The position numbers and the translations under genes are program-made. Positions 15,807 to 28,422 of a DNA stretch of 64,000 bases are shown here, in pieces. This DNA comes from an uncultured Lachnospiraceae bacterium. Its GTDB lineage: Bacteria > Bacillota > Clostridia > Lachnospirales > Lachnospiraceae. The notes below the pieces were generated by a model that was not told where the DNA came from, ran no database searches, and saw only the letters and a program-made list of their open reading frames with translations. The stretch spans positions 1 through 64,000 of the forward strand of contig CANRNJ010000003.1 in the NCBI GenBank assembly GCA_947631955.1, given 5' to 3'. How positions within the stretch are numbered: the first letter of the stretch is position 1; each line of letters begins with the position of its first letter.

Positions 15807-17291
15807 ATGAGAGGGATCGATACGCAGGTTCGTAAGAACAGACGCCGCATTTTCAAAGAAGTGGCTGAACTGGCTTATCATTCGGAAAATTTAATAGATG
15901 ATGTGGAAGCGCTCCCGTATAAGATCGTCGATTATGACGAATCGGAATATGAGAGCATCTACAGGGAACGGGCGATCGTCCGTGAGCGCATCCGTCTGGC
16001 CATGGGGCTTTCGCTGCGGCCGGAGAACCGTCTGGTCCATCTGACGCAGGGACTGGAAGAGAGCAATATCGCGGAGAAATATTATGAACCGCCGCTCATG
16101 CAGGTCATTCCTTCCGCATGCAACGCCTGCCCGGAGAATCGTTATCAGGTGACGGACCAGTGCAAGGGGTGCGTTGCCCATCCCTGCCGGGAAGTATGCC
16201 CGCGGGACGCCGTTTTCATGAAAAACGGCAAGTCGATGATCGATCAGGACAAATGCATCAAATGCGGTAAATGCAAAGCAGTCTGCCCGTACGACGCCAT
16301 ATCCCATCAGGTCAGGCCCTGTGCGGGAGCCTGCGGCGTGGGCGCCATCAAGAATGACGAAAAGGGGCGTGCGTTCATAGACAGCGACCTGTGCGTATCC
16401 TGCGGACAGTGCATGGTGAATTGTCCTTTTGGCGCGATCGCCGACAAATCGCAGATCTTTCAGCTGATACGCGCCATGCAGTCCGGTCATAAGATCATCG
16501 CGCAGGTGGCGCCTGCGTTCGCCGGACAGTTTGGACCGGACGTTACGCCGGATATGCTGAAGACGGCCTTGAAGGAACTGGGCTTTTATGATGTATACGA
16601 AACGGCGCTTGGGGCGGATCAGGGGGCCATGGCGGAAGCCGAGCACTATGCTTCGGAAGTGGCCACGGGAAAACTGCCGTTCAGCCTGACTTCGTGCTGT
16701 CCTTCGTGGTCCGTGCTGGCCAAGAGGTTTTTCCCGGAAACGATCGATAAGATATCCAACGCGCTGACGCCCATGGTGGCCACCGCACGGATCATCAAGG
16801 CGGATCATCCCGATGCCAAAGTGGTGTTTATCGGGCCGTGCGCTTCCAAGAAACTGGAGGCGTCCCGAAGGACGATCCGCTCCGACGTAGATTTTGTCAT
16901 TACTTTTGAAGAACTGGCAGGGATCTTTGAGGCAAAAAATATCCTGTTAAGTGAGATCCATGCGATGGACGAGCTTGCAGGCGCAACGGGCGCGGGACGC
17001 GGTTACGGAGTCGCCGGAGGCGTGGCAAGCGCCATAGAAGAATGTGTCAGGGAATATTATCCGGACATAGAAGTCAATATTGAACATGCCGAGAGCCTGT
17101 CGGAGTGTAAGAAGATGCTGATGTTAGCCAAGGCGGGCAAGAAAAACGGCTGCCTGATCGAGGGTATGGCATGTCCCGGCGGATGTATAGCAGGCGCAGG
17201 GACCAATATCGCGGTGGCGGCAGCCGCCAAAGCGGTTTCAGCCTTTAAGGACGCGGCGGATAAACGGATACCGGACAGGCAGGAGCAGTAG
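15807..17291 (+). CDS. [FeFe] hydrogenase, monomeric, group B-like
   Basis: A 494-residue iron-sulfur protein. Ferredoxin-type clusters lie at about 95-225 (CKGCVAHPCREVCP, CIKCGKCKAVCPYDAI, CVSCGQCMVNCPFGAI). The H-cluster motifs follow: SLTSCCPSW, FIGPCASKKLE and EGMACPGGCIAGAG, variants of the three hydrogenase signatures. The PCASKK and ACPGGC forms suit group B enzymes. It would couple ferredoxin oxidation to H2 formation, or sense H2. CGGAGG precedes ATG 15807; no maturase genes are nearby. Confidence 0.9.
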   Translation: MRGIDTQVRKNRRRIFKEVAELAYHSENLIDDVEALPYKIVDYDESEYESIYRERAIVRERIRLAMGLSLRPENRLVHLTQGLEESNIAEKYYEPPLMQVIPSACNACPENRYQVTDQCKGCVAHPCREVCPRDAVFMKNGKSMIDQDKCIKCGKCKAVCPYDAISHQVRPCAGACGVGAIKNDEKGRAFIDSDLCVSCGQCMVNCPFGAIADKSQIFQLIRAMQSGHKIIAQVAPAFAGQFGPDVTPDMLKTALKELGFYDVYETALGADQGAMAEAEHYASEVATGKLPFSLTSCCPSWSVLAKRFFPETIDKISNALTPMVATARIIKADHPDAKVVFIGPCASKKLEASRRTIRSDVDFVITFEELAGIFEAKNILLSEIHAMDELAGATGAGRGYGVAGGVASAIEECVREYYPDIEVNIEHAESLSECKKMLMLAKAGKKNGCLIEGMACPGGCIAGAGTNIAVAAAAKAVSAFKDAADKRIPDRQEQ

Positions 17292-17300
17292 GAGGACAAT

Positions 17301-17441
17301 AGTGTGTAAAATCACACTGATGTGCTGATTTTACACACAGGAATTTGTGCCGGAGCGTCACAAATTCCTCTGATGACAGACGCGAATTTGAGATTCGCGT
17401 CGCCTCTGTCGCGTAAACGCTCCAGAATGGAGATTAATATG
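17301..17441 (+). repeat. Structured intergenic element, copy 1 (gltX leader)
   Basis: About 140 bases with three consecutive hairpins: 17303-17339 (GTGTGTAAAATCA with TGATTTTACACAC), 17340-17368 (GGAATTTGTG with CACAAATTCC) and 17379-17401 (GACGCGAAT with ATTCGCGTC). GGAGCGT in the second loop (17352-17358) can pair with ACGCTCC (17417-17423), whose CTCC can instead pair with the Shine-Dalgarno GGAG (17429-17432). The element ends at the gltX ATG. A second copy precedes hflC. Confidence 0.85.
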
Positions 17442-18899
17442 GCAGTAAGAATAAGGACAAGATACGCGCCAAGCCCCACGGGGAAGATGCATGTGGGGAA
17501 TCTGCGCACGGCGCTGTATGAGTTTTTGATCGCAAAACACGCAGGCGGGGACTTTATGCTCCGCATCGAGGACACGGATCAGGAAAGATTTGTGGAGGGC
17601 GCCACGGATATTATTTACCGGACCTTGGAAAAAGCGGGTCTTACGCATGACGAAGGCCCGGATAAGGACGGCGGTTACGGCCCGTATGTGCAGAGCGAGC
17701 GTGTGAAGACCGGCATTTATATGAAATATGCGAAGGAACTGATCGAGAAGGGCGAGGCATATTACTGTTTCTGTGACAAGGAGCGCCTTGCTTCCTTAAA
17801 GATCAAAGTAGTGGAGGGAAAAGAGATCAGCGTCTACGACAAGCACTGTCTGCACCTGAGCAGAGAGGAGATCGAGGAAAACCTTGCGGCGGGCAGACCT
17901 TTTGTTATCCGCCAGAACAATCCCAGAGAGGGATCGACGACCTTCCACGACGAACTGTACGGCGATATCACGGTGGAAAACGCCGAATTGGACGATATGA
18001 TCCTGATCAAATCCGACGGCTATCCTACTTACAATTTTGCGAACGTGGTGGACGATCATACCATGAATATCACGCATGTGGTGAGAGGGAGCGAATACAT
18101 TTCCTCAGCCCCTAAGTATATGCGGCTGTACGAAGCTTTCGGATGGGAGTCGCCCGTATATGTGCACCTGCCCCTGATCACGGACGAGAATCATAAGAAA
18201 CTTGCCAAGAGAGGCGGGGCCTCGTCCTTTGAGGATCTCATGGAGAGCGGTTTTGTGGCGGAGGCTGTCGTGAATTTTATCGCGCTGCTTGGATGGAGCC
18301 CTGAGGATAACCGCGAGATCTTTTCTCTGGAGGAGCTGATACAGAAATTTGATTACCACCGGATCAGCAGATCCCCGGCGGTCTTTGATATCGTAAAGCT
18401 GCGCTGGATGAACGGCGAGTACCTCAAAGCCATGGACGAAGACCGGTTCTATGAGATGGCGGAACCCTATTTAAAAAAGGCCCTTACGAAGGATCTTGAT
18501 CTTCGCAGGATCGCATCCATGGTTAAGACAAGAATAGAAGTTTTTCCGGATATCATGGAAATGGTCGATTTCTTTGAGAAACTTCCGGAGTACGATGTGG
18601 AGATGTATACGCATAAGAAGATGAAGACGGACAGGGATTCCAGTCTGGAAGTGCTCCGGGATCTTCTCCCGATCCTTGAGGACCAGACGGATTACAGCAA
18701 CGACGCCCTGTATCAGACATTGACCGCTTATGTGGAAAAGAAGGGCTGTAAGAACGGCTATGTGATGTGGCCGGTGAGAACGGCATTGTCCGGTAAGCAG
18801 ATGACACCGGCGGGCGCTACGGAGATCATGGAAATACTCGGCAAGGAGGAATCGCTTGCCAGAATCCGCGAAGGGATCAGAAAACTGGAGAATGACTGA
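17439..18899 (+). CDS. gltX: Glutamyl-tRNA synthetase
   Basis: A 486-residue class I synthetase that charges tRNA with glutamate. The catalytic HIGH region reads [17 protein letters not shown], and the KMSKS loop is the variant [25 protein letters not shown] and the C-terminal anticodon-binding helices are in the expected order. ATG 17439 has GGAG at 17429 supplied by the structured element that covers its leader. Its stop overlaps the helicase start by eight bases. Regulation through the leader structure is likely but unproven. Confidence 0.95.
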
Positions 18900-20859
18900 G
18901 AGAAGACCGGATCCTGATCAGGAGAGAGCGATCAGGCACACTGTCGGGGCCGCGCAGGTTTTTGCGGGCCCCGGAAGCGGCAAGACCTACGTCACCGTAC
19001 ACCGCATCAAGTATCTCATCGAACATCACGGCGCAGACCCTGCGCACATTCTTGTCATCACATTTACAAAAGCTGCGGCACAGGAGATGCAGCAGCGTTT
19101 CTTCCGCCTTATGGAACCGGAACGGCCGCCGGTGAGATTTGGCACATTTCATGCCGTGTTTTATCACATTCTGAAACATTCGGCGCAGTATCGCGGTCAT
19201 ACGATCATAACGGAATCGGAGAAGAAAAGATTATTGCGTAAGATCCTTCGTCTGCACAGGCGTTTCGCGTGCGTTCAGGAAGAGGATATGGAGGAGATAG
19301 AAACATGCTTAAAGCGTTATACTGACCGCACCGGAGATATGCGTCTTTCGATCAGGGAACTGACCGGGGAGGATATCCGTTTTCTGGCGGAAGAATACGA
19401 AGCCTGTCTGCGCGAATTCAAACAGATGGATTTTGACGGCGTTATCCGGCATTGCAGGGCGCTTCTTTCAGAAGACAGAGAACTGCTGGATCATTGGAGA
19501 AGACAGTTTACCTATATCATGATCGACGAGTTTCAGGACATTTCTCCCGATCAGTATGAAATCGTCCGGATGCTTGCCGCTCCGGAAAATAATCTGTTTG
19601 TCGTGGGAGATGACGACCAGTCCATCTATGGATTCCGGGGAGCCAGTCCGGAGTGTATGCAGGCTTTTTTCCGGGATTACCCGGAAGCAGAAAGGATGTT
19701 TCTAAACGTTAATTACCGGTGCGGCCGCCGGATCGTGGAAGCGGCGGGAAAAGTGATCGCGGAGAATGAACAGCGGACCGCCAAAGAGATCAAAGCCTTT
19801 CATGAAGAGGGCGCCGGTTTCCGGCTCTGTTTGTTCGACGAGGAAAAAGAGGAGGAAGGATTCCTGATCCGCGAACTTGCGGACCGGCAGAACGCCGGAG
19901 AAACGGACCGCTGCGCCATGATATGCCGCACCCATTTTGACTGCGCCATATGGGCGGGGAATCTCAGGAAACACGGGATCGCTTTCCGGCTCAAAGAAAG
20001 ACCGGCGGATCCTTTCCGTCATTTTGTGGTGCTTGACATCATGGCGTACCTTGCGCTGGCCAACGGGGATATGCAGCGCAGACATTTCCTGCGCATTATG
20101 AACCGTCCGGTCCGGTATTTCCGGAGAGAATGTGTCCCGGAGGAGGCGCTTACCGAAGAGGATATCCTGTCGTACTATCAGGACAGCCCCGGACTGCAGC
20201 GGGAAGTGCGGAAGCTTTTTGCGGACATCAGGAGTCTGGGCGGCAGGAAAATCACGCTTCAGATCCATTATATCCGCCATGTGATCGGTTATGACAGATA
20301 CCTGGCGGAAAAGTACGGCACGCAGAAGGCGGCGGAATACATCCGCACAGCGGACGATTTTCAGAAGCTGTCGGAACAGTTTGCCACATACGGGGAACTG
20401 TGCGGTTATATCAGCCGGTATGAGGAAACGGCGGCTTCCAATGCGAAAGAGGAATCTCATGACTCCAAGGAAGGGCCGGGAATAAGGCTTATGACGATGC
20501 ACGCGTCCAAGGGATTGGAGTTCGATACGGTGTATCTGCCGGACTGTCAGGAGGGCAGGATCCCTTCGGGAAAGGCGGAAACCAAAGAAGAGATTGAGGA
20601 AGAGCGGCGTATGCTGTATGTGGCCATGACGAGGGCCAAGAAGGAACTGTGCATGACGGCCTGCAAAGGAAAAAGCGGAAAGGATGCGCCTTCCCGCTTT
20701 CTGAAGTGTCTGGTTCAGTCTTCTTCGTCCACCAGTTCGTCAAATTCCGCCGCGTCCAGATATTCGTCAAAGGCATCCGCCACAGCGTCGTATTCGTCGT
20801 CGTCATCGATATATTCAAGTTCCGGCTCCTCGTTTGGATCGTCCGGATTCTCGCGGTAG
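18892..20859 (+). CDS. UvrD/Rep-family DNA helicase
   Basis: A 655-residue superfamily 1 helicase: Walker A AGPGSGKT, Ia [12 protein letters not shown], Walker [41 protein letters not shown] and [15 protein letters not shown]. It unwinds DNA from 3' to 5' in repair or replication. It is shorter than typical PcrA. The last 45 or so residues are a Ser-rich tail that exists because the gene runs 145 bases into the oppositely oriented DUF1292 gene. ATG 18892 overlaps the gltX stop, implying coupling. Confidence 0.93.
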
Positions 20860-21056
20860 CGGTAGAACCAGACTTCTCCGTCCGCATTGTCCCCGTTTTC
20901 GTCAAGAGGTAACAGCGCAATATAGTCTTGTCCGGATACCGGAAGGATAGTTACCACGGCACAGTTGACGGTCGTACCGTCTTCCAGTTCCAGATCTACC
21001 GTCATTTCTTCCGCATCGTAGCCGTTATCCGCGCTTTTGTCATTGTTTCTGCCCAT
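20715..21056 (-). CDS. DUF1292 family protein
   Basis: A 113-residue acidic protein with the DUF1292 core ([39 protein letters not shown]) and a very acidic tail rich in Asp/Glu/Tyr. Family role unknown; it is common in Firmicutes. AAGGAGG precedes the ATG at 21056. Its 3' 145 bases overlap the helicase gene tail to tail. Confidence 0.9.
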   Translation of the reverse strand: MGRNNDKSADNGYDAEEMTVDLELEDGTTVNCAVVTILPVSGQDYIALLPLDENGDNADGEVWFYRYRENPDDPNEEPELEYIDDDDEYDAVADAFDEYLDAAEFDELVDEED

Positions 21057-21227
21057 ATAACTGCCTCCTTACATACTGGAATAGTTATATTTTACAGAAA
21101 ACGGTCAAGATATTCAATGCAGAAATATTTTTTTATTCAGTAAAAAGAGTTTCTATGGTAATATATATGTGCGATGTGATAAAATACACACAGCAGCGTA
21201 GAAACGATCAGTACACCGGAGGGTTTT

Positions 21228-23165
21228 ATGCATATAGAATACAAAGTTAAAGCAGACCGGGCCTATCCGCTGGGCGCTTTTCTGGACAGGGACGGACTTC
21301 ATATTTCCGCAGTATGCGACTGTGCGGATCCGGCAGAAGAGGGCGGATTCGGCGTCATGCTGTACGACAGAAGACACAAGAACGGCATCCGGATCCCGTT
21401 CCCGCAGGAGAGCAGGGTGGGCGGGGTGTATTCCATGCTGCTTGCGGATTATCAGGACAAAGACTGCCGTTATCTCTTATATTGCGGCGGCAGGATGTGG
21501 CAGGATCCCTATTGCAGAAAGGTGGACGATCCTTACCGGTACGGGGCAGTCAAGAGCAATATGCCCAGATGCATGATCCAAGGGGAGGCTTACGACTGGG
21601 GCGGCGACCGGCCCCTGCGCTGCCCGTATGAGGATATGATCCTCTATGCCCTGCATGTGCGCGGTTTTACGAAGCACAGGTCTTCCGGAGTCGAGCACAA
21701 GGGCACTTACCGCGGGATCACGGAGAAGATACCGTATCTGGCCGATCTGGGGATCACTTCGATCCTCCTCATGCCCTGTTATGAATTTGACGAGGTTATG
21801 GATCAGGATTTCTGGTCCGGGCGCACCCCTATGGAACAGGGGACGGTCCCCGGCAGACAGGCGCCTTTGAATACCGATGCAGACGGCGGCACGGCATCTG
21901 GCGCAGGCGGCAGGGTCAGACAGCGCATAAGGCTGAATTACTGGGGGTATCAGGAAGGGCTGTATTACGTCCCAAAGAGCAGCTACGCATACGGAAAGGA
22001 TCCGGTGGGAGAGTATAAGGACATGGTAAAGGCGCTGCACCGGAACGGGATCGAAGTGCTCATGCAGTTTTATTTTCCGCCGGGCGTCACGTCGATAGAA
22101 ATGCTGGATATCCTGAAATATTGGGTCATTGAATATCATATAGACGGTTTTCATGTGATGGGCGTCGATCTTCCGATCGAACTGTTTGCAAAAGATCCGT
22201 TTTTAAGCGATACCAAAATACTGACCGAGCAGCAGTACAGCCCGAACGCGGAAGACCGTATGAGCAGGACACGCTGTCTTGGATGGCTGAACGACGGGTT
22301 CCTGTTTGACGTCCGCCGCGTGCTGAAAGGCGACGACAATATGATCAATCAGCTGATCTATCATATGCGCAATAACCGCCCGGAAAACGGAATAGTCAAC
22401 TATATCGCGAAATGGGACGGGATGCGCTTGGCCGACATCGTTTCCTATGACCGCAAACACAATGAGAACAACGGAGAGGCCAATCAGGACGGCTCTGATT
22501 ATAATTGCAGCTGGAACTGCGGCGTAGAGGGCAGAAGCCGCCGGAAAAACATTACGGATCTCCGGCTGCGGCAGATGAAGAACGCTTTGACGCTTGTATT
22601 TTTGTCGCAGGGGACGCCGCTTCTGTACAGCGGGGATGAATTCGGCAATACGCAGGAAGGAAACAACAATCCGTACTGTCAGGACAATGCGGTCGCATGG
22701 ATCAAGTGGAACCGGTCGGAGGACGGGAACACGCTGCTTGGGTATACCAAACGGCTGATCGCCTTCCGCAGGGCCCATCCGATCCTGCACAGCCCGGCTC
22801 CGCTCAAAGGAATGGATTATCTGTCCTGCGGCTATCCCGATATCTCCTTTCACGGGCATGAGGCATGGCGGCCCGACACGAGTCCCGCCAGCCGCAGCAT
22901 CGGAGTCATGTACTGCGGACGCTACGGCATAACGGGCGGCGCCGAAGACGATAAGTTTATCTTTATCGGCGTCAATCTGTACTGGTCATCCTATCGTCTG
23001 GGGCTCCCGCAGCTGCCGAAAGGCATGGAGTGGACTCTGTATGCTTCCACCGACCCGCAGGACATGGAGAGCGATCCGACAAAGGAGCGGCCCGGAACGG
23101 AGGGACCTATGCAGGAGATCTGTGTAAAGCCCCGGACCATTGTGATATACGTCGCAGAGGCCTGA
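21228..23165 (+). CDS. GlgX-like alpha-amylase-family protein with degenerate active site
   Basis: A 645-residue relative of glycogen debranching enzymes: N-terminal beta domain, GH13 barrel (YALHVRGFTKHRSSG, GTYRGITEKIPYLADLGI, NYWGYQEGLYYVPKSSYA) and C-terminal domain. The usual catalytic motifs are altered: DGFRFDLA reads DGFHVMGVD, so the nucleophile Asp position holds Met; DVVYNH is replaced by MQFYFPPG; and HDGF reads WDGM. LSQGTPLLYSGDEFGNTQ is normal. It may bind glycogen or act as a pseudoenzyme. Expressed alone after a 170-base gap. Confidence 0.85.
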   Translation: MHIEYKVKADRAYPLGAFLDRDGLHISAVCDCADPAEEGGFGVMLYDRRHKNGIRIPFPQESRVGGVYSMLLADYQDKDCRYLLYCGGRMWQDPYCRKVDDPYRYGAVKSNMPRCMIQGEAYDWGGDRPLRCPYEDMILYALHVRGFTKHRSSGVEHKGTYRGITEKIPYLADLGITSILLMPCYEFDEVMDQDFWSGRTPMEQGTVPGRQAPLNTDADGGTASGAGGRVRQRIRLNYWGYQEGLYYVPKSSYAYGKDPVGEYKDMVKALHRNGIEVLMQFYFPPGVTSIEMLDILKYWVIEYHIDGFHVMGVDLPIELFAKDPFLSDTKILTEQQYSPNAEDRMSRTRCLGWLNDGFLFDVRRVLKGDDNMINQLIYHMRNNRPENGIVNYIAKWDGMRLADIVSYDRKHNENNGEANQDGSDYNCSWNCGVEGRSRRKNITDLRLRQMKNALTLVFLSQGTPLLYSGDEFGNTQEGNNNPYCQDNAVAWIKWNRSEDGNTLLGYTKRLIAFRRAHPILHSPAPLKGMDYLSCGYPDISFHGHEAWRPDTSPASRSIGVMYCGRYGITGGAEDDKFIFIGVNLYWSSYRLGLPQLPKGMEWTLYASTDPQDMESDPTKERPGTEGPMQEICVKPRTIVIYVAEA

Positions 23166-23184
23166 TAAGGGCGGGGAGAGGACA

Positions 23185-23730
23185 ATGAATAAAGCATGGA
23201 ATCATTTTAAGACCATCACCCGTCATAAGCTGTTGGTGATGGAAGGCTGCTTTAAAGTGGGATTGTACTGGCAGGGGATCACGCACGACCTGTCCAAATA
23301 CAGTCCCAGTGAATTTGTCGTGGGAGCCAGATACTGGCAGGGAAACAGAAGCCCCAACAATGCGGAGCGGGAGGACAAAGGCTATTCCTCCGCATGGCTG
23401 CATCACAAGGGGCACAACAGACATCATTTTGAGTACTGGCTGGATTACAGCGCTCATGACAATGCCGGTGAGATCGTTCCGGTGCCTATACCGCTTAAAT
23501 ATGTGATCGAGATGTTTATAGACCGGATCGCGGCATGTAAGGTATATAACGGGAAAGCCTATACGGATAAGGATCCCCTCGCGTATTACCAGTCAACCAG
23601 CGCGCCGCCTCCGCTGCATCCCAAGACAAAGCACCAGCTTGAATTTCTGCTTCATATGCTGGCTGACTGCGGTGAGGAGAAGACGTTCCAATATATAAGA
23701 ACAAAGATCCTGCGCCGCAGTAAAAGATAA
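23185..23730 (+). CDS. DUF5662 family protein
   Basis: A 181-residue protein with the DUF5662 pattern: HFKTITRHKLLVMEGCFKVG, GITHDLSKYSPSEF, HHKGHNRHHFEYW and a central Asp. The many conserved His/Asp residues (THDLSKYS, HHKGHNRHH) suggest metal binding, perhaps an HD-like hydrolase, but activity is not established. It lies 19 bases after the GlgX-like gene and may share its mRNA. Confidence 0.88.
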   Translation: MNKAWNHFKTITRHKLLVMEGCFKVGLYWQGITHDLSKYSPSEFVVGARYWQGNRSPNNAEREDKGYSSAWLHHKGHNRHHFEYWLDYSAHDNAGEIVPVPIPLKYVIEMFIDRIAACKVYNGKAYTDKDPLAYYQSTSAPPPLHPKTKHQLEFLLHMLADCGEEKTFQYIRTKILRRSKR

Positions 23731-23794
23731 AAAGATATGTGGCATCCGATCTCCTTATGCATAGCATATAGTATGAAAATAAGGAGATATGCGT

Positions 23795-24139
23795 ATGAAT
23801 TCTTGGTTGATCTTGTTGTTATTACTGTTGGGCGGTCAAAACGGCTGTGACGATCCTGCGGACTGCGGCTGCGGCGGTCATGGGAACTTCGGCCGTACCG
23901 GAGGAAGAGATCGGTTCGGCAGCGGCGACTGCGGCTGCAGCGAGGAAAGAGGACGAAACAGCGGCGACTGCGGCTGCGGCGAGGAAAGAGGACGAAACAG
24001 CGGCGACTGCGGCTGCGGCGGAGAAAGAGATCAAAACGGCAATGACTGCGGCTGCGCCGATGTGAACGAGTCCCGTTTTGAACCCCGTTTTGAGTCCGGT
24101 CCCTTTGGCAGTCCGGGCTGCGGATGCAGCGGTCAATAA
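23795..24139 (+). CDS. Cys/Gly-rich tandem-repeat protein with hydrophobic N-terminus
   Basis: A 114-residue protein: a leucine-rich segment at residues 4-12 (LILLLLLLGG), then repeated DCGC motifs (about 23-26, 46-49, 58-61, 71-74, 84-87 and CGCSG at the end) separated by charged linkers EERGRNSG. At DNA level the linker plus motif repeats with a 39-bp period (23921, 23960, 23999). AAGGAG precedes ATG 23795. Possible roles include metal binding, a disulfide-linked surface or coat polymer, or a peptide precursor; none is proven. Confidence 0.75.
   Translation: MNSWLILLLLLLGGQNGCDDPADCGCGGHGNFGRTGGRDRFGSGDCGCSEERGRNSGDCGCGEERGRNSGDCGCGGERDQNGNDCGCADVNESRFEPRFESGPFGSPGCGCSGQ
23921..24037 (+). 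repeat. 39-bp tandem repeat in the Cys-rich gene
   Basis: Three consecutive 39-bp units start at 23921, 23960 and 23999, each beginning AGCGGCGACTGCGGCTGC. The third degenerates after 25 bases. The unit length is a multiple of three, so copy-number change would keep the frame. Confidence 0.85.
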
Positions 24140-24150
24140 TTGTAATGTGC

Positions 24151-24184
24151 TGCCCTTTCTTTTTGTTGACGGGAAGAAAGGGCA
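24151..24184. terminator. Hairpin between the Cys-rich gene and trpS
   Basis: TGCCCTTTCTT (24151-24161) pairs perfectly with AAGAAAGGGCA (24174-24184) across a 12-base loop. The T-run (24196-24201) is separated by a dozen bases, so it is an imperfect terminator or leader structure. Confidence 0.5.
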
Positions 24185-24243
24185 ATGTTAAACTGTTTTT
24201 TGGTACAAACCTAGGAGTATATGCTCCGGAACGGAGGACGATC

Positions 24244-25248
24244 ATGTTAGACGATAAGAAAGTTTTGTTCAGCGGGATGCAGGCGACCGGAAACCTGACT
24301 CTCGGAAATTATCTGGGAGCCCTTAAGAATTGGATAACGCTGTGTGATGAATATATGTGTTTCTATTCGGTGGTCGATCTACATTCCATTACGATAAGGC
24401 AGGATCCTGCGGAACTCCGCAGAAGGGCGAGAAATCTGCTGACTCTGTATATCGCTGCGGGCCTCGATCCGGAGAAGAACTGCATCTATTATCAGTCCCA
24501 TGTTTCGGGACATGCCGAGCTGTCATGGATATTGAACTGCTTTACTTATATGGGAGAACTGAACCGTATGACGCAGTATAAGGACAAGGCGGCAAAACAT
24601 GCGGACAACATCAATGCGGGCCTCTTTACCTATCCGGTCCTGATGGCGGCGGACATTCTGCTGTATCAGACGGACGTGGTTCCCGTAGGGAAAGATCAGC
24701 TGCAGCATCTGGAGATCACAAGGGACATTGCGCAGCGTTTCAATGCGGTCTACGGGGATGTGTTTACGATCCCGGAACCTTATATCGGCAAGGCGGGTGC
24801 GAGCATCAAGAGCCTTCAGGATCCGGCCAAGAAAATGTCCAAGTCGGACGAGAACCCCAATGCCAGCATCTATCTGATGGACGATCCCGATACGATCCGG
24901 CGTAAATTCAAGAGAGCCGTGACGGATTCCGTGGGCTGTGTACGCTATACGGACGAACAGCCGGGGATCCATAATCTGATCGATATTTACAGCGTATGCA
25001 CAGGTAAGACGGCCGAGGAAGTGGAGAAGGAATTCGACGGGAAAGGGTACGGCGAATTTAAGGAAGCGGCAGGCGAGGCGGTAATCGGCATACTGAAACC
25101 GCTTCAGGATCGTTTTAACGACCTTGCCAAAAACAAAGACTATATTGACAAGATCATCAAAGAAAATGCGGAGAAGGCTGATTATTACGCAACCAAGACC
25201 CTCCGCAAAGTACAAAAGAAGGTCGGCTTCCCGGAGAGGATCCGCTGA
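24244..25248 (+). CDS. trpS: Tryptophanyl-tRNA synthetase
   Basis: A 334-residue class I synthetase: LFSGMQATGNLTLGNYLGA (HIGH-equivalent region), the Trp pocket MVLMAADILLYQTDVVPVG-like stretch (seen as VLMAADILLYQTDVVPVGKD) and KKMSKSDENP (KMSKS). It charges tRNA with tryptophan. GGAGGA precedes ATG 24244. The start of the leader holds three mutually pairable segments (GGAG 24214, CTCC 24224, GGAG 24233), the last being the Shine-Dalgarno. No T-box is seen. Confidence 0.95.
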   Translation: MLDDKKVLFSGMQATGNLTLGNYLGALKNWITLCDEYMCFYSVVDLHSITIRQDPAELRRRARNLLTLYIAAGLDPEKNCIYYQSHVSGHAELSWILNCFTYMGELNRMTQYKDKAAKHADNINAGLFTYPVLMAADILLYQTDVVPVGKDQLQHLEITRDIAQRFNAVYGDVFTIPEPYIGKAGASIKSLQDPAKKMSKSDENPNASIYLMDDPDTIRRKFKRAVTDSVGCVRYTDEQPGIHNLIDIYSVCTGKTAEEVEKEFDGKGYGEFKEAAGEAVIGILKPLQDRFNDLAKNKDYIDKIIKENAEKADYYATKTLRKVQKKVGFPERIR

Positions 25249-25251
25249 TCT

Positions 25252-25977
25252 TTATCCCTCAAATACATCCGTGAAATAACCGGCGCCGGAGATCGGTTCG
25301 CCGTTTTGCAGCAGATGCGCCACATCGCCGATCATCTGCGTCCGGAAACGGGCAATATGATTCTGCCGTTCCTCTGTGGCCGCCACTGTTACGGAAGTGG
25401 GAGCCAGATACATGCCATGCAGCAGAAGGACCGGCGAGATCCCCAGAAGATGGCTGAGCATGACGCAGGTGATACCGAGATGGCAGAATATGACGATGGT
25501 GTCATTTACATCCTGCCGGGGCGTGTGAACATAATAATCGTGCTGTCTTGTATAACCATAGTCTTCCAGAAGACGGTCAAGACTGCCGCAGACGTTTTCA
25601 TAGGCGGGCACCAGTTCCTCGTTGGAACGGTAGATGTCCGTCTTTTTCCATGCCTCTTTGTCGTACATTTCAGGTATACCGGTCCAGTATTCCGGCATGA
25701 GATCCCACGGGACTCCGATGCGGCCCGTAGTGGGATCTTGGATCGTATAGGAAAATTCCTTCATCCACTCGTGGGTAACGGCCTGTTTTCCGATCTTTTC
25801 AAGAGAGTACGACGCCGTCTGTCTGGCCCTGCCAAGCGGCGAGCAGTAGAAATCATACTGATCGACGGGCCATCCTGCCACGCGGTCGGATAGCAGTCTG
25901 GCCTCCCTTACGCCTTTTTCGGTCAAAGCGTCGTTGATATAGTCCGGATCCCCGTGTCTTATAAAAATGATCCTCAT
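25252..25977 (-). CDS. Histidine phosphatase family protein
   Basis: A 241-residue phosphoglycerate-mutase-like phosphatase with the catalytic RHG motif near the N-terminus (IIFIRHGDPDY), the SPLGRARQTA arginine motif and a second catalytic His in VIFCHLGITCV. Substrate unknown. It is convergent with trpS (three-base gap), and TCTCC/GGAGAA sequence before its ATG gives a ribosome site. A possible terminator between them was not found. Confidence 0.9.
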   Translation of the reverse strand: MRIIFIRHGDPDYINDALTEKGVREARLLSDRVAGWPVDQYDFYCSPLGRARQTASYSLEKIGKQAVTHEWMKEFSYTIQDPTTGRIGVPWDLMPEYWTGIPEMYDKEAWKKTDIYRSNEELVPAYENVCGSLDRLLEDYGYTRQHDYYVHTPRQDVNDTIVIFCHLGITCVMLSHLLGISPVLLLHGMYLAPTSVTVAATEERQNHIARFRTQMIGDVAHLLQNGEPISGAGYFTDVFEG

Positions 25978-26163
25978 GCTTATTCTCCTTCTTTTGCGCT
26001 GCGGCCGGGCAGGCTGGCAGACCGGCTGCTGAATTTAACAAAATTTTATTAGTGTTTCTTCACATTATACTATATAATAACATAGTGAAAGTCATATGAA
26101 AACACCGATCATACGGGATGGCCATTTCTATGACGAGGAAAAGGAATTACGGAGGAAAAGAAA

Positions 26164-27201
26164 ATGTTTGGCGCAAAGAAAAATGTGGACAATTTTCAGA
26201 GCGGCATGAAAAGCCCCAAAAAGCGGGTGAGCGGAAAGATCTATATGTTTTTGGCCGCCGCGGTGATCCTGCTTGTGCTGATCAGCCAATCCTACTATAC
26301 GATCAAGGAGGAAGAGCAGGCGGTCGTCTGTACTTTTGGGGCGCCCAAGGCCGTTACGACGCCGGGACTGCATTTTAAGATCCCTTTTGTACAGACTGTG
26401 ACGAAGGTGAACACGACGATTCAGGGATTTTCCATCGGTTATCATTCGACCGGAGAGGAAGACGATGCGTTGATGATCACTTCCGACTACAATTTTATCT
26501 TCGTGGATTTTTATGCCGAATACAGAGTGACCGATCCGGTCAAAGCGCTGTACGCATCCCAGAATCCGGAACTGGTGCTTAAAAATATCGCGCAGAACTG
26601 TATCAGGACTACGATCGGCTCCTACACCGTGGACAGCGTGCTGACGACGGGCAAGAACGAGATCCAGTCCAATATCAAACAGCTGATACTGGATAAACTG
26701 GAAGAGTACGATATCGGGATTCAGCTGGTCAATATAACGATTCAGGATGCCACGCCGCCGAACACGGAAGTGGAAAACGCCTTTAAAGAAGTTGAAACGG
26801 CAAAGCAGGGCAAGGAAACGGCCCTGAACAACGCCAATAAGTACCGGAACGAGCAGATCCCCAATGCCGAGGCGGAAGCGGATAAGATCCTTCAGGACGC
26901 GGAAGCGGAGAAACAGGAGAGGATCAACGAGGCAAACGGCCAGGCAGCGCGTTTTAATTCCATGTATCAGGAATATGTGAAATATCCTGAGGTTACAAAG
27001 AAGAGAATGTTCTACGAGGCCATGGAGAACGTGCTCCCGGACGTCAAGGTAGTCATACAGAGCAAGGACGGCAACATGAACACGATCCTGCCGTTAGACA
27101 GTTTTGTGACGCAGGACGAACCGGCAGACGGCGCGGCGGATGCGTCCGGCAGTACGGGCGGAACCGATACCGATGCGGACGAAGATGTCGTTTCACAATA
27201 A
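26164..27201 (+). CDS. hflK: HflK-type SPFH membrane protein
   Basis: A 345-residue protein: N-terminal anchor (about 27-44, YMFLAAAVILLVLISQS), the SPFH core (EEEQAVVCTFGAPKAVTTPG, PFVQTVTKVNTT), an Ala/Glu-rich coiled coil (KEVETAKQGKETALNNA, AEAEADKILQDAEAEKQERI) and an acidic C-terminus. With HflC it forms a cage regulating FtsH in other bacteria. GGAGG precedes ATG 26164. A TATACT/TATAAT-rich stretch at 26068-26080 is a likely promoter. No ftsH in the window. Confidence 0.9.
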   Translation: MFGAKKNVDNFQSGMKSPKKRVSGKIYMFLAAAVILLVLISQSYYTIKEEEQAVVCTFGAPKAVTTPGLHFKIPFVQTVTKVNTTIQGFSIGYHSTGEEDDALMITSDYNFIFVDFYAEYRVTDPVKALYASQNPELVLKNIAQNCIRTTIGSYTVDSVLTTGKNEIQSNIKQLILDKLEEYDIGIQLVNITIQDATPPNTEVENAFKEVETAKQGKETALNNANKYRNEQIPNAEAEADKILQDAEAEKQERINEANGQAARFNSMYQEYVKYPEVTKKRMFYEAMENVLPDVKVVIQSKDGNMNTILPLDSFVTQDEPADGAADASGSTGGTDTDADEDVVSQ

Positions 27202-27214
27202 TAGATCAAGGTGA

Positions 27215-27354
27215 TAGTGTAAACGACCACACCGATGTGCTGATCGTTTATACGGGATTTGTGCCGGAGCGTCACAAATTCCTCTGATGGCAGACGCGAA
27301 TTTGAGATTCGCGTCGCCCCGTCGCGTAAACGCTCCGGAATGGAGATTAGTATG
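27215..27354 (+). repeat. Structured intergenic element, copy 2 (hflC leader)
   Basis: The 3' 95 bases differ from copy 1 at about five positions. The first hairpin differs in sequence but keeps its pairing (GTGTAAACGA with TCGTTTATAC, one G-T pair), as does the second (one G-T pair), which argues for selection on structure. GGAGCGT (27266-27272), ACGCTCC (27330-27336) and the Shine-Dalgarno GGAG (27342-27345) occupy equivalent places. The copy ends at the hflC start. Confidence 0.85.
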
Positions 27355-28422
27355 TCAGAGTATAATCAGAACGGAAATAATATGAATACTTCTTCGGAAC
27401 AATATGAACATTACAATTCCGACGGTACGAAGAAGAAAAAGAAGGGCGATAAGAAGAAGCGCACCGGCGCCAAGGTCCTGACCGTCTTCGCGGCGGCAGC
27501 CATTCTGCTCGTTCTCGGAAGTTCCATGGTGGTGACGAAACAGAATCAGTTTAAGCTGATCCGGCAGTTCGGCCGTGTGCAGAGGATCGTGACGCAGCCG
27601 GGATTGTCGTTTAGGATCCCGTTTGTGGAATCCGTCGATACGATCCCGAAGGAGCTGATGCTGTACGATCTGCCTGCGTCGGACGTTATCACATCGGATA
27701 AGAAGACCATGATCGTGGACAGTTATGTGTTGTGGCATGTGACCGATCCGCTGAAATTCGCCCAGACGCTGAGCTGTTCGGTGAACAATGCGGAAGGCCG
27801 TATCGACGCCATCGTATACAACGCGATGAAGAACACGATCTCGAATATGAAGCAGGATGAGGTGATCCGGAGCCGTGACGGGAAAATGACGATCACATTG
27901 GATGAGGACGGCACGGATGTATCCAACAACGATCTGGTCCTGTCTGAGGAAACGGAAACCGTGGTTGAGATCACGTCTTTGACGGAAGAGATCATGGCGC
28001 AGATCGATCATGTCGAGAATCAGTACGGTATCGAGATCGTCGTGGTGGACGTCAAGAAACTGGATCTTCCCGACGACAACAAACAGGCGGTGTATACCCG
28101 TATGATCTCGGAGAGGGAGAATATTGCGGCGCAGTATACGGCGGAAGGCAGATCCGAGGCTAAGATGATCGAGAATACGACCGACAAAGAAGTGTCCATC
28201 ATGCTGTCGGACGCCAAGGCAAAGGCGGAGGCCGTTGTCGCGGAGGGTGAAGCGGAATATATGCGTATCCTGTCGGACGCCTATGCCAATCCGGAAAAAA
28301 TGGATTTCTATTCTTTTGTCCGGGCTCTGGATGCGGTCAAAGCCAGCATAAGCGGCGATGATAAAACGGTGATCCTGTCCGAAGATTCACCGGTGGCGCA
28401 GATCTTTAACGGACAGTATTAG
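27352..28422 (+). CDS. hflC: HflC-type SPFH membrane protein
   Basis: A 356-residue SPFH protein: Asn-rich cytoplasmic start, membrane span (about 41-58, VFAAAAILLVLGSSMVV), SPFH core (NQFKLIRQFGRVQRIVTQPG, SFRIPFVESVDTIPKEL), a central insertion with acidic residues, a coiled-coil stretch (ENIAAQYTAEGRSEAKM, DAKAKAEAVVAEGEAEYM) and FYSFVRALDAVK, typical of HflC. ATG 27352 follows the structured element; the upstream in-frame extension is part of that element, not protein. Partner of HflK at the membrane. Confidence 0.9.
   Translation: MSEYNQNGNNMNTSSEQYEHYNSDGTKKKKKGDKKKRTGAKVLTVFAAAAILLVLGSSMVVTKQNQFKLIRQFGRVQRIVTQPGLSFRIPFVESVDTIPKELMLYDLPASDVITSDKKTMIVDSYVLWHVTDPLKFAQTLSCSVNNAEGRIDAIVYNAMKNTISNMKQDEVIRSRDGKMTITLDEDGTDVSNNDLVLSEETETVVEITSLTEEIMAQIDHVENQYGIEIVVVDVKKLDLPDDNKQAVYTRMISERENIAAQYTAEGRSEAKMIENTTDKEVSIMLSDAKAKAEAVVAEGEAEYMRILSDAYANPEKMDFYSFVRALDAVKASISGDDKTVILSEDSPVAQIFNGQY

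Follow-up and report, generated by a model that had tools for sequence, protein, structure and literature searches.

A dispersed structured element at the start codons of unrelated genes in Lachnospiraceae: a probable mobile repeat directed to ribosome-binding sites

Several described systems share individual traits with the subject of this analysis, a structured element found directly upstream of the gltX and hflC genes in a 64,000-nucleotide (nt) stretch of the genome of an uncultured Lachnospiraceae bacterium (positions 1 to 64,000 of contig CANRNJ010000003.1, assembly GCA_947631955.1; referred to as the window). In the preQ1 and SAM-II riboswitches, a pseudoknot abuts the Shine-Dalgarno (SD) sequence in the 5' leader. 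A predicted pseudoknot lies next to the SD sequence in the present element, too, but the latter has no gene theme, is dispersed, and occupies lineage-specific positions. The HEARO (IscB-associated) RNA is likewise structured and marks the edge of a mobile element, and it has been reported beside ATGA/GTGA targets; the likeness lies in the presence of a structured RNA in a mobile element, whereas here no Rfam match was obtained and there is no open reading frame (ORF) inside the copies that were read. Integration of the Tn916 type involves a short coupling sequence of 6 nt that can derive either from the earlier site or from the target. A short junction sequence is seen here as well, but it is 4 nt long, the element bears no integrase, and the apparent target is a ribosome-binding site (RBS). 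Rickettsia palindromic elements insert in frame inside genes. As described in PMC2635572, they are similarly repeats that invade genes in a form that the host gene tolerates; however, they reside inside the coding sequence, whereas the present element appears to sit between the SD sequence and the start codon and to supply a new SD. Finally, the BOX, RUP, and SPRITE repeats of Streptococcus pneumoniae, according to PMC3049150, are short, present in many copies, and predicted to form stem-loops, similarly to miniature inverted-repeat transposable elements (MITEs). The BOX repeats are modular, clustered, and inserted into one another, and both BOX and RUP are described with terminal inverted repeats and target duplications, no fixed place relative to start codons being mentioned. 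The present element resembles all three in its size, copy number, stem-loops, and MITE-like character, and differs from BOX and RUP in having no visible inverted ends and in its likely target, the spacer of the RBS.

The two copies in the window match covariance model R1 at 17302-17441 (140 nt, E = 9.5e-36) and 27217-27354 (138 nt, E = 7.2e-34). The first ends on the ATG codon of gltX (17439) and the second on that of hflC (27352), as an earlier reading of the sequence alone (hereinafter, the sequence-only reading) had reported. Stems P2 and P3 and the tail are nearly identical, letter for letter, between the two copies; stem P1 differs on both strands with its pairing kept, which that reading had also recognized. 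Both copies contain GGAGCGT in the P2 loop, ACGCTCC in the tail, and a CTCC-N5-GGAG arrangement, and each folds better than 200 of 200 shuffled sequences (z-scores of -6.6 and -3.7). A covariance model built from 38 copies identified 54 matches in this genome, most of them near 140 nt (43 were obtained with BLAST), so that the pair in the window belongs to a much larger family.

Members of this family are present in 31 of the 37 genomes of the genus, own genome included. One of these, G031, has 88 model matches, which is the number that was scored. With stricter filters, the family was found in 29 of 150 genomes, representing 28 of 149 genera, of the bacterial family, again with the own genome included. 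A search of named genomes for the tail pattern returned 116 stretches, 96 of which were scored with the model, yielding 78 matches. Among the 80 titles listed, the carriers are mostly Lachnospiraceae (Acetatifactor, Roseburia, Eisenbergiella, and Lachnospira), along with some metagenome-assembled genomes labelled Clostridium, Clostridiaceae, Eubacteriaceae, or Bacillus. Seven BLAST matches (best E = 1.6e-7) come from G043, a genome of another family of the same order, so the range may extend beyond the window's own family. The comparison with Rfam proposed in the sequence-only reading produced no match in the window at the gathering threshold and, for 14 copy-bearing loci searched down to an E value of 1, only chance-like matches outside the element; no riboswitch, ribozyme, intron, or HEARO family of Rfam was recognized in either set. 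The result listings of the literature searches name no such element, and the accessible parts of two papers on new bacterial RNA motifs contain no occurrence of "lachno," "lachnospir," or "roseburia."

The copies occupy a characteristic position. In this genome, 36 of the 54 matches end exactly on the start codon of an ORF of at least 60 amino acids, and 40 end within 4 nt of one. Another 68 copies were drawn from the genomes at the top of the genus and family match lists, the own genome excluded; 60 of them have the start codon at the model end, five more have one 5 to 27 nt further on, and the remaining three are followed by short ORFs only. The model includes the ATG, which helps such matches, but the BLAST matches in this genome give the same picture. 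An SD-like motif is found within 14 nt to the left of the element in 61 of these 68 copies, compared with 264 of 1360 control windows (19%) from the same loci, and within 12 nt in 89 of 110 rows of the set used for spacing counts. At the other end, exactly 6 nt separate GGAG from ATG in 79 of the 110 rows (this set and the one of 161 rows used for the heads hold a few copies twice, in a second head register). By comparison, of 84 orthologues of gltX, engB, and coaX that lack the element, 45 have GGAG within range and only 9 have it at a spacing of 6 nt. The distance from the end of the SD core to the head of the element is 3 or 4 nt in 40 of the 55 copies measured, and copies that follow each other head to tail are connected by the joint GGRG-ATTA-GTGTG. 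The SD-like motif on the left can thus be taken for the old SD and the GGAG on the right for a new one, which places the element between the SD and the start codon. Judging from these positions, the insertion target would be the spacer that separates the native SD from the start codon, with the junction 2 nt 5' of the latter.

The genes downstream of the element are unrelated to each other. Among 47 downstream ORFs, 41 were run against Pfam (five had no family), and they include gltX and genes for a Band 7 protein (hflC), a GTPase (engB), CoaX (coaX), a formyltransferase (fmt), dihydrofolate reductase, a DNA glycosylase, glycosyltransferases, and transporters, as well as serS, smpB, yhbY, and uxaC; gene names that go beyond the Pfam family were assigned by us. 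Several of these genes belong to essential pathways in most bacteria, so their translation should stay working, and it is presumably maintained from the SD of the element after the insertion. A full element was found by the model scan in 0 of 140 orthologue loci of five carrier genes (58 for gltX and hflC, 58 for engB and coaX, and 24 for serS; 162 loci had been found), which points to recent insertions. In the case of coaX, the nearest congener, whose protein is 95% identical, has an empty RBS region. Neither the Pfam families nor these 140 loci revealed a conserved link to a gene or pathway of the kind expected of a cis-regulatory riboswitch; the diversity of families and the empty loci agree with the earlier suggestion that the element moves into unrelated genes. 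The same loci contain eight weak matches, the strongest with E values of 0.00055 (27 nt), 0.0041, and 0.0084. Two of the weak ones end on the start codon of the orthologue itself (engB in G031 and serS in G019), and a stretch similar to the tail occurs in the hflC region of G034 (L112, E = 0.013). The appearance of these three suggests old, decayed copies and repeated visits to the same genes.

Taken together, these data make it probable that the family represents a non-autonomous mobile element that carries an SD of its own and inserts, with a fixed orientation, between the SD and the start codon. Sequence comparison shows each of its components, namely, the family itself, the polarity, the position, the new SD, the lineage-specific insertion, the stems, and the pseudoknot. 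In the proposed mechanism, an element of ∼130 to 140 nt would enter the SD-start codon spacer in a single orientation, the native SD would be left upstream, and the 3' end of the element would bring a new GGAG, placed at a distance of six nt from the start codon. Because the gene would keep an RBS owing to this element-borne GGAG, even essential genes could tolerate an insertion in front of them. After transcription, the leader is predicted to fold into P1, P2, and P3, with the P2 loop pairing with the tail next to the new SD; this pairing would hold the CTCC of the tail off the new SD. Recognition of the element ends and of an RBS-like target would presumably be due to a trans-acting enzyme. 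As in MITEs, there are many short non-coding copies per genome (54 here), and the family is best placed among the short non-autonomous repeats, as one directed at ribosome-binding sites, which it would also repair.

Additional evidence comes from the junctions. The 4 nt to the left of the element are identical to the 4 nt that follow its GGAG in 40 of 111 rows, compared to 18.9 in shuffles made within genomes (one group mixes named genomes); after removal of the tail-like left flanks, the respective numbers are 25 of 80 and 11.1. This link between left and right sits at positions -4 and -3, with positions -2 and -1 being nearly constant, and no significant link was detected at positions -5 to -12. 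The right-hand GGAG is therefore taken to be the element's own, and a longer target duplication that would include GGAG was rejected. Where the right spacer is unlike the commonest one of its group, it equals the left spacer in 20 of 56 rows, with 3.0 expected (three duplicate rows of the 111 were dropped from this count). The shared 4-nt junction thus has statistical support and fits a staggered insertion; carry-over of a coupling sequence also fits, since ATTA is retained on the right in many copies irrespective of the left spacer, and both window copies are of this latter kind.

The head of the element has GTG, TTG, or ATG at nt 3 to 5 in 145 of 161 distinct rows (CTG in 2), and in many of them the 3' strand of P1 has changed to match. 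Together with the spacing between the SD and the head, the NTG makes the joint between tandem copies (GGAG-ATTA-GT-GTG) look like an SD followed by a start codon. On this basis, the RBS itself might be the attachment site of the element, which would recombine with the SD-spacer-start codon of any gene; this proposal is tentative. Equally tentatively, the insertion could be seen as splitting the RBS, so that the native SD is combined with the NTG of the element and the SD of the element with the native start codon. The frame that starts at the head NTG is open for at least 15 codons in 40 of 55 distinct P1 bodies (1 and 19 for the other two frames). A conserved leader peptide is unlikely because the frame enters P2 differently in the two main types of P1 and is disrupted in both window copies (GTG-TAA and GTA).

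The predicted fold is supported by covariation. In the alignment of 38 copies, the model with P1, P2, P3, and the pseudoknot has 93.2% paired cells and 157 double-changed cells, compared to 52.9 in shuffled alignments, and its covariation score of 0.286 exceeds the values obtained when the pairing is slid (at most 0.066). For a further test of the pseudoknot, the 68 further copies were aligned to a model without the pseudoknot helix. In that alignment, the helix between the P2 loop and the tail has 92.6% paired cells and 57 double-changed cells (12.8 in shuffles), and double changes affect 6 of its 9 pairs (3.5 in shuffles). One pair is G-C in 33 copies, A-U in 17, C-G in 14, and G-U in 4. The weakest measure, the number of further pair types, gives 16 (13.7 in shuffles), a value that 7 of 500 shuffles reached. 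The score of this helix is 0.308, compared to at most 0.111 in the slid control; kinship inflates the contrast with the shuffles, but the slid control still falls. Selection on structure, as well as the long-range GGAGCGT:ACGCTCC pair, both originally proposed from two copies, can thus be extended to the family.

Such a fold could instead serve transposition in the form of single-stranded DNA, as in IS200/IS605- or REP-like MITEs, with the RNA form being idle. This possibility, which we consider unlikely, would account for the fixed polarity, the strong single-strand fold, the presence of GGAG at both junctions, and the lack of terminal inverted repeats by eye; covariation alone cannot separate RNA from single-stranded DNA, and the own genome encodes four Y1_Tnp matches. 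However, Y1_Tnp was detected in only 13 of the 37 genomes of the genus, own genome included, and was not found in G014, G029, G031, G002, G006, G009, and G020, incomplete drafts that have 23 to 88 copies each. A shared 4-nt spacer at the junctions is not expected of the IS200/IS605 family, and the G-U intermediates fit RNA better, albeit not decisively; we lean toward a fold that works as RNA. The reverse transcriptase domain RVT_1 (two matches in the own genome) was likewise not found in the incomplete drafts of G002, G006, G009, G020, G035, and G003. Neither the Y1 transposase nor the reverse transcriptase tracks the copy number, and both were rejected as mobilizers.

The sequence-only reading had interpreted the leader as a translational switch, in which pairing of the P2 loop with the tail leaves the SD open and pairing of CTCC with GGAG closes it; a cassette of this kind might spread as a useful control. 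The pseudoknot that abuts the SD is indeed conserved, the closed hairpin can form in both window copies (-5.3 and -4.9 kcal/mol), and nested folding hides the SD of gltX (2 to 10% unpaired) and, partly, that of hflC (37 to 52% unpaired). However, the CTCC:GGAG hairpin shows no double changes either in the 38 copies, where 99.3% of the cells are paired, or in the 68 further copies, where 85.3% are, and its pair 204/212 is broken in 29 of the 68. Changes in the tail are mostly accompanied by changes in the P2 loop, whereas the SD hairpin is not kept by matching changes; it is therefore the long-range pair that selection keeps. For five types of the element, with the helices taken alone, the predicted energies are -13.4 to -20.2 kcal/mol for the loop:tail helix and -0.9 to -5.3 kcal/mol for the SD hairpin, the extreme being the G154 type (-20.2 and -0.9). 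Thus, the open-state half of the proposed switch stands as a conserved pairing, and the closed state does not qualify as a family-wide feature, although individual copies, the two in the window among them, may adopt it. Given also the unrelated downstream genes and the empty orthologue loci, a switch as the explanation for the family is quite unlikely.

It could also be argued that this is an ordinary intergenic repeat inserted at random, so that its position at start codons reflects pure selection: insertions within genes would be purged, copies that spare the RBS would survive, and the tail SD would be kept once the native SD was displaced. Tail-only remnants before start codons fit such a scenario. 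On the other hand, a harmless intergenic insertion need not fall into the short spacer of an RBS, and the frequencies of left SD-like motifs (61 of 68) and of the 6-nt spacing (79 of 110) call for either targeting or very strong filtering, making random insertion decidedly improbable. Least credible by far is an element that acts at the RNA level, being spliced or cut from the mRNA, so that the native SD is rejoined to the start codon, and spreading through RNA: its place between these two signals and its knotted, conserved fold would suit such a cycle, but an SD of its own at a fixed spacing would be pointless if removed, no Rfam ribozyme or intron was matched in the window or the 14 loci, and reverse transcriptase does not follow the copy number.

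A number of observations weigh against a mobile element directed to the RBS. The position of the matches is subject to two biases, as the last columns of the model include the ATG and thereby favor matches that end on it, and the choice of the 68 copies came from the top of the match lists. Further, 14 of the 54 matches in this genome are away from a start codon: three are upstream members of tandem arrays, three are short, internally deleted copies, three have a start codon 7, 22, or 23 nt downstream, four have no usable ORF, and one is an antisense match on an array. The sequence-only reading had listed copies in arbitrary places as an objection to its start-codon association; this objection applies to the minority of 14 and not to the rest. 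Identical 4-nt spacers are absent from 71 of the 111 rows, and both window copies have unequal ones (AATA/ATTA and GATA/ATTA). Weak matches, possibly old and decayed copies, end on the start codons of engB in G031 (L253, E = 0.021) and serS in G019 (L528, E = 0.017), so that certain genes may be visited more than once or may have inherited remnants; moreover, the nearest empty site that was compared, that of coaX at 95% protein identity, does not come from a close strain pair. No mobilizing gene was found with the two families tried (Y1_Tnp and RVT_1) in the incomplete drafts. No terminal inverted repeats were seen by eye, the heads being G-N-N-T-G and the tails AATGGAG, and no autonomous relative with matching ends was found among the fetched copies; in the search for copies with a gene inside, the three partial, head-only matches (model positions 1 to 103) lay at contig ends. 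The gltX copy had no match in the plasmid or phage collections, which is unusual for a mobile element. None of the viral contigs contained the exact P2 core; the tail pattern was present in 49, and two of these scored weakly with the model (E = 0.036).

If the family is indeed a mobile element of this type, mobile DNA would be using the start signal of a gene as a safe harbor, similarly to the use of tRNA genes by integrative elements, and the leaders of dozens of genes, including essential ones, would have been rewired or preserved in Lachnospiraceae and some of their relatives. It would also define a clear search for the enzyme, namely, for whatever recognizes an RBS. The near-identical leaders of unrelated genes constitute a natural set for testing the effect of an SD-adjacent pseudoknot on translation. 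For genome annotation, the family serves as a warning that a conserved, structured, multi-copy leader need not be a riboswitch.

Features of the element copies and adjacent genes in the window
Feature	Position	Strand	Basis or remark
Probable native SD of gltX, AGGAGG	17290..17295	+	Left of insertion; sequence, SD-like motifs near ATG in gltX orthologues
Copy 1, left spacer AATA	17298-17301	+	Sequence
Copy 1, stem P1, head GTGTG	17302..17338	+	Model match, P1 covariation
Copy 1, stem P2	17340..17368	+	Covariation
Copy 1, P2 loop CGGAGCGT, predicted pseudoknot 5' strand	17351-17358	+	Covariation
Copy 1, stem P3	17375..17404	+	Covariation; base GAC/GCC here, GGC/GCC in most copies
Copy 1, tail ACGCTCC, predicted pseudoknot 3' strand	17417..17423	+	Covariation; SD pairing also possible
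Copy 1, element-borne SD GGAG	17429..17432	+	Sequence
Copy 1, right spacer ATTA	17433-17436	+	Followed by 2 nt and the gltX ATG (17439-17441)
gltX, glutamyl-tRNA synthetase	17439..18899	+	Pfam tRNA-synt_1c, Anticodon_2
Possible decayed third copy, tail only	24220..24246	+	Ends on the start codon (ATG, 24244) of a tRNA synthetase gene, W/Y type
Probable native SD of hflC, GGTGA of AAGGTGA	27210..27214	+	Sequence
Copy 2, left spacer GATA	27213-27216	+	Sequence
Copy 2, stem P1, head GTGTA	27217..27253	+	Model match
Copy 2, stem P2	27254..27282	+	Covariation
Copy 2, P2 loop CGGAGCGT	27265-27272	+	Covariation
Copy 2, stem P3	27289..27318	+	Covariation
Copy 2, tail ACGCTCC	27330..27336	+	Covariation
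Copy 2, element-borne SD GGAG	27342..27345	+	Sequence, spacing counts
Copy 2, right spacer ATTA	27346-27349	+	hflC ATG at 27352-27354
hflC, SPFH/Band 7 protein	27352..28422	+	Pfam Band_7; name from the sequence-only reading and place after hflK-like gene

The native SD suggested for hflC has counterparts in three hflC orthologues (L096, L098, and L099), in which AGGTGA is found directly 5' of the ATG codon. In the window, an hflK-like gene and hflC form a tandem at 26164-28422, both coding for Band_7 proteins, with the element between them. The possible third copy reads TATGCTCCGGAACGGAGGACGATC-ATG and is part of a weak model match (24142-24246, E = 0.014), and the gene that follows belongs to the Pfam family tRNA-synt_1b.

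Structural variants of the element were also encountered. The copies in L062, L422, and L423, as well as those in L527 and L528 (upstream of serS), look like deletion derivatives, with P1 alone, or P1 plus a portion of P2, fused to the tail. Extra small hairpins are seen in P1, in P3, or before the tail in L149, L157, L184, L210, and L410; judging by these, the stems look exchangeable, like modules.

Some of the other genomes contain a second dispersed repeat, also strongly paired and also located upstream of genes. Rfam searches at the gathering threshold of the five loci in which it was noticed gave only a tRNA. These loci are L071, L084, L086 (gltX), L543 (serS), and L152, and the arms of the repeat are GAGAATGCC...GGCATTCTC-like and AGAACTTCT...AGAAGTTCT-like.

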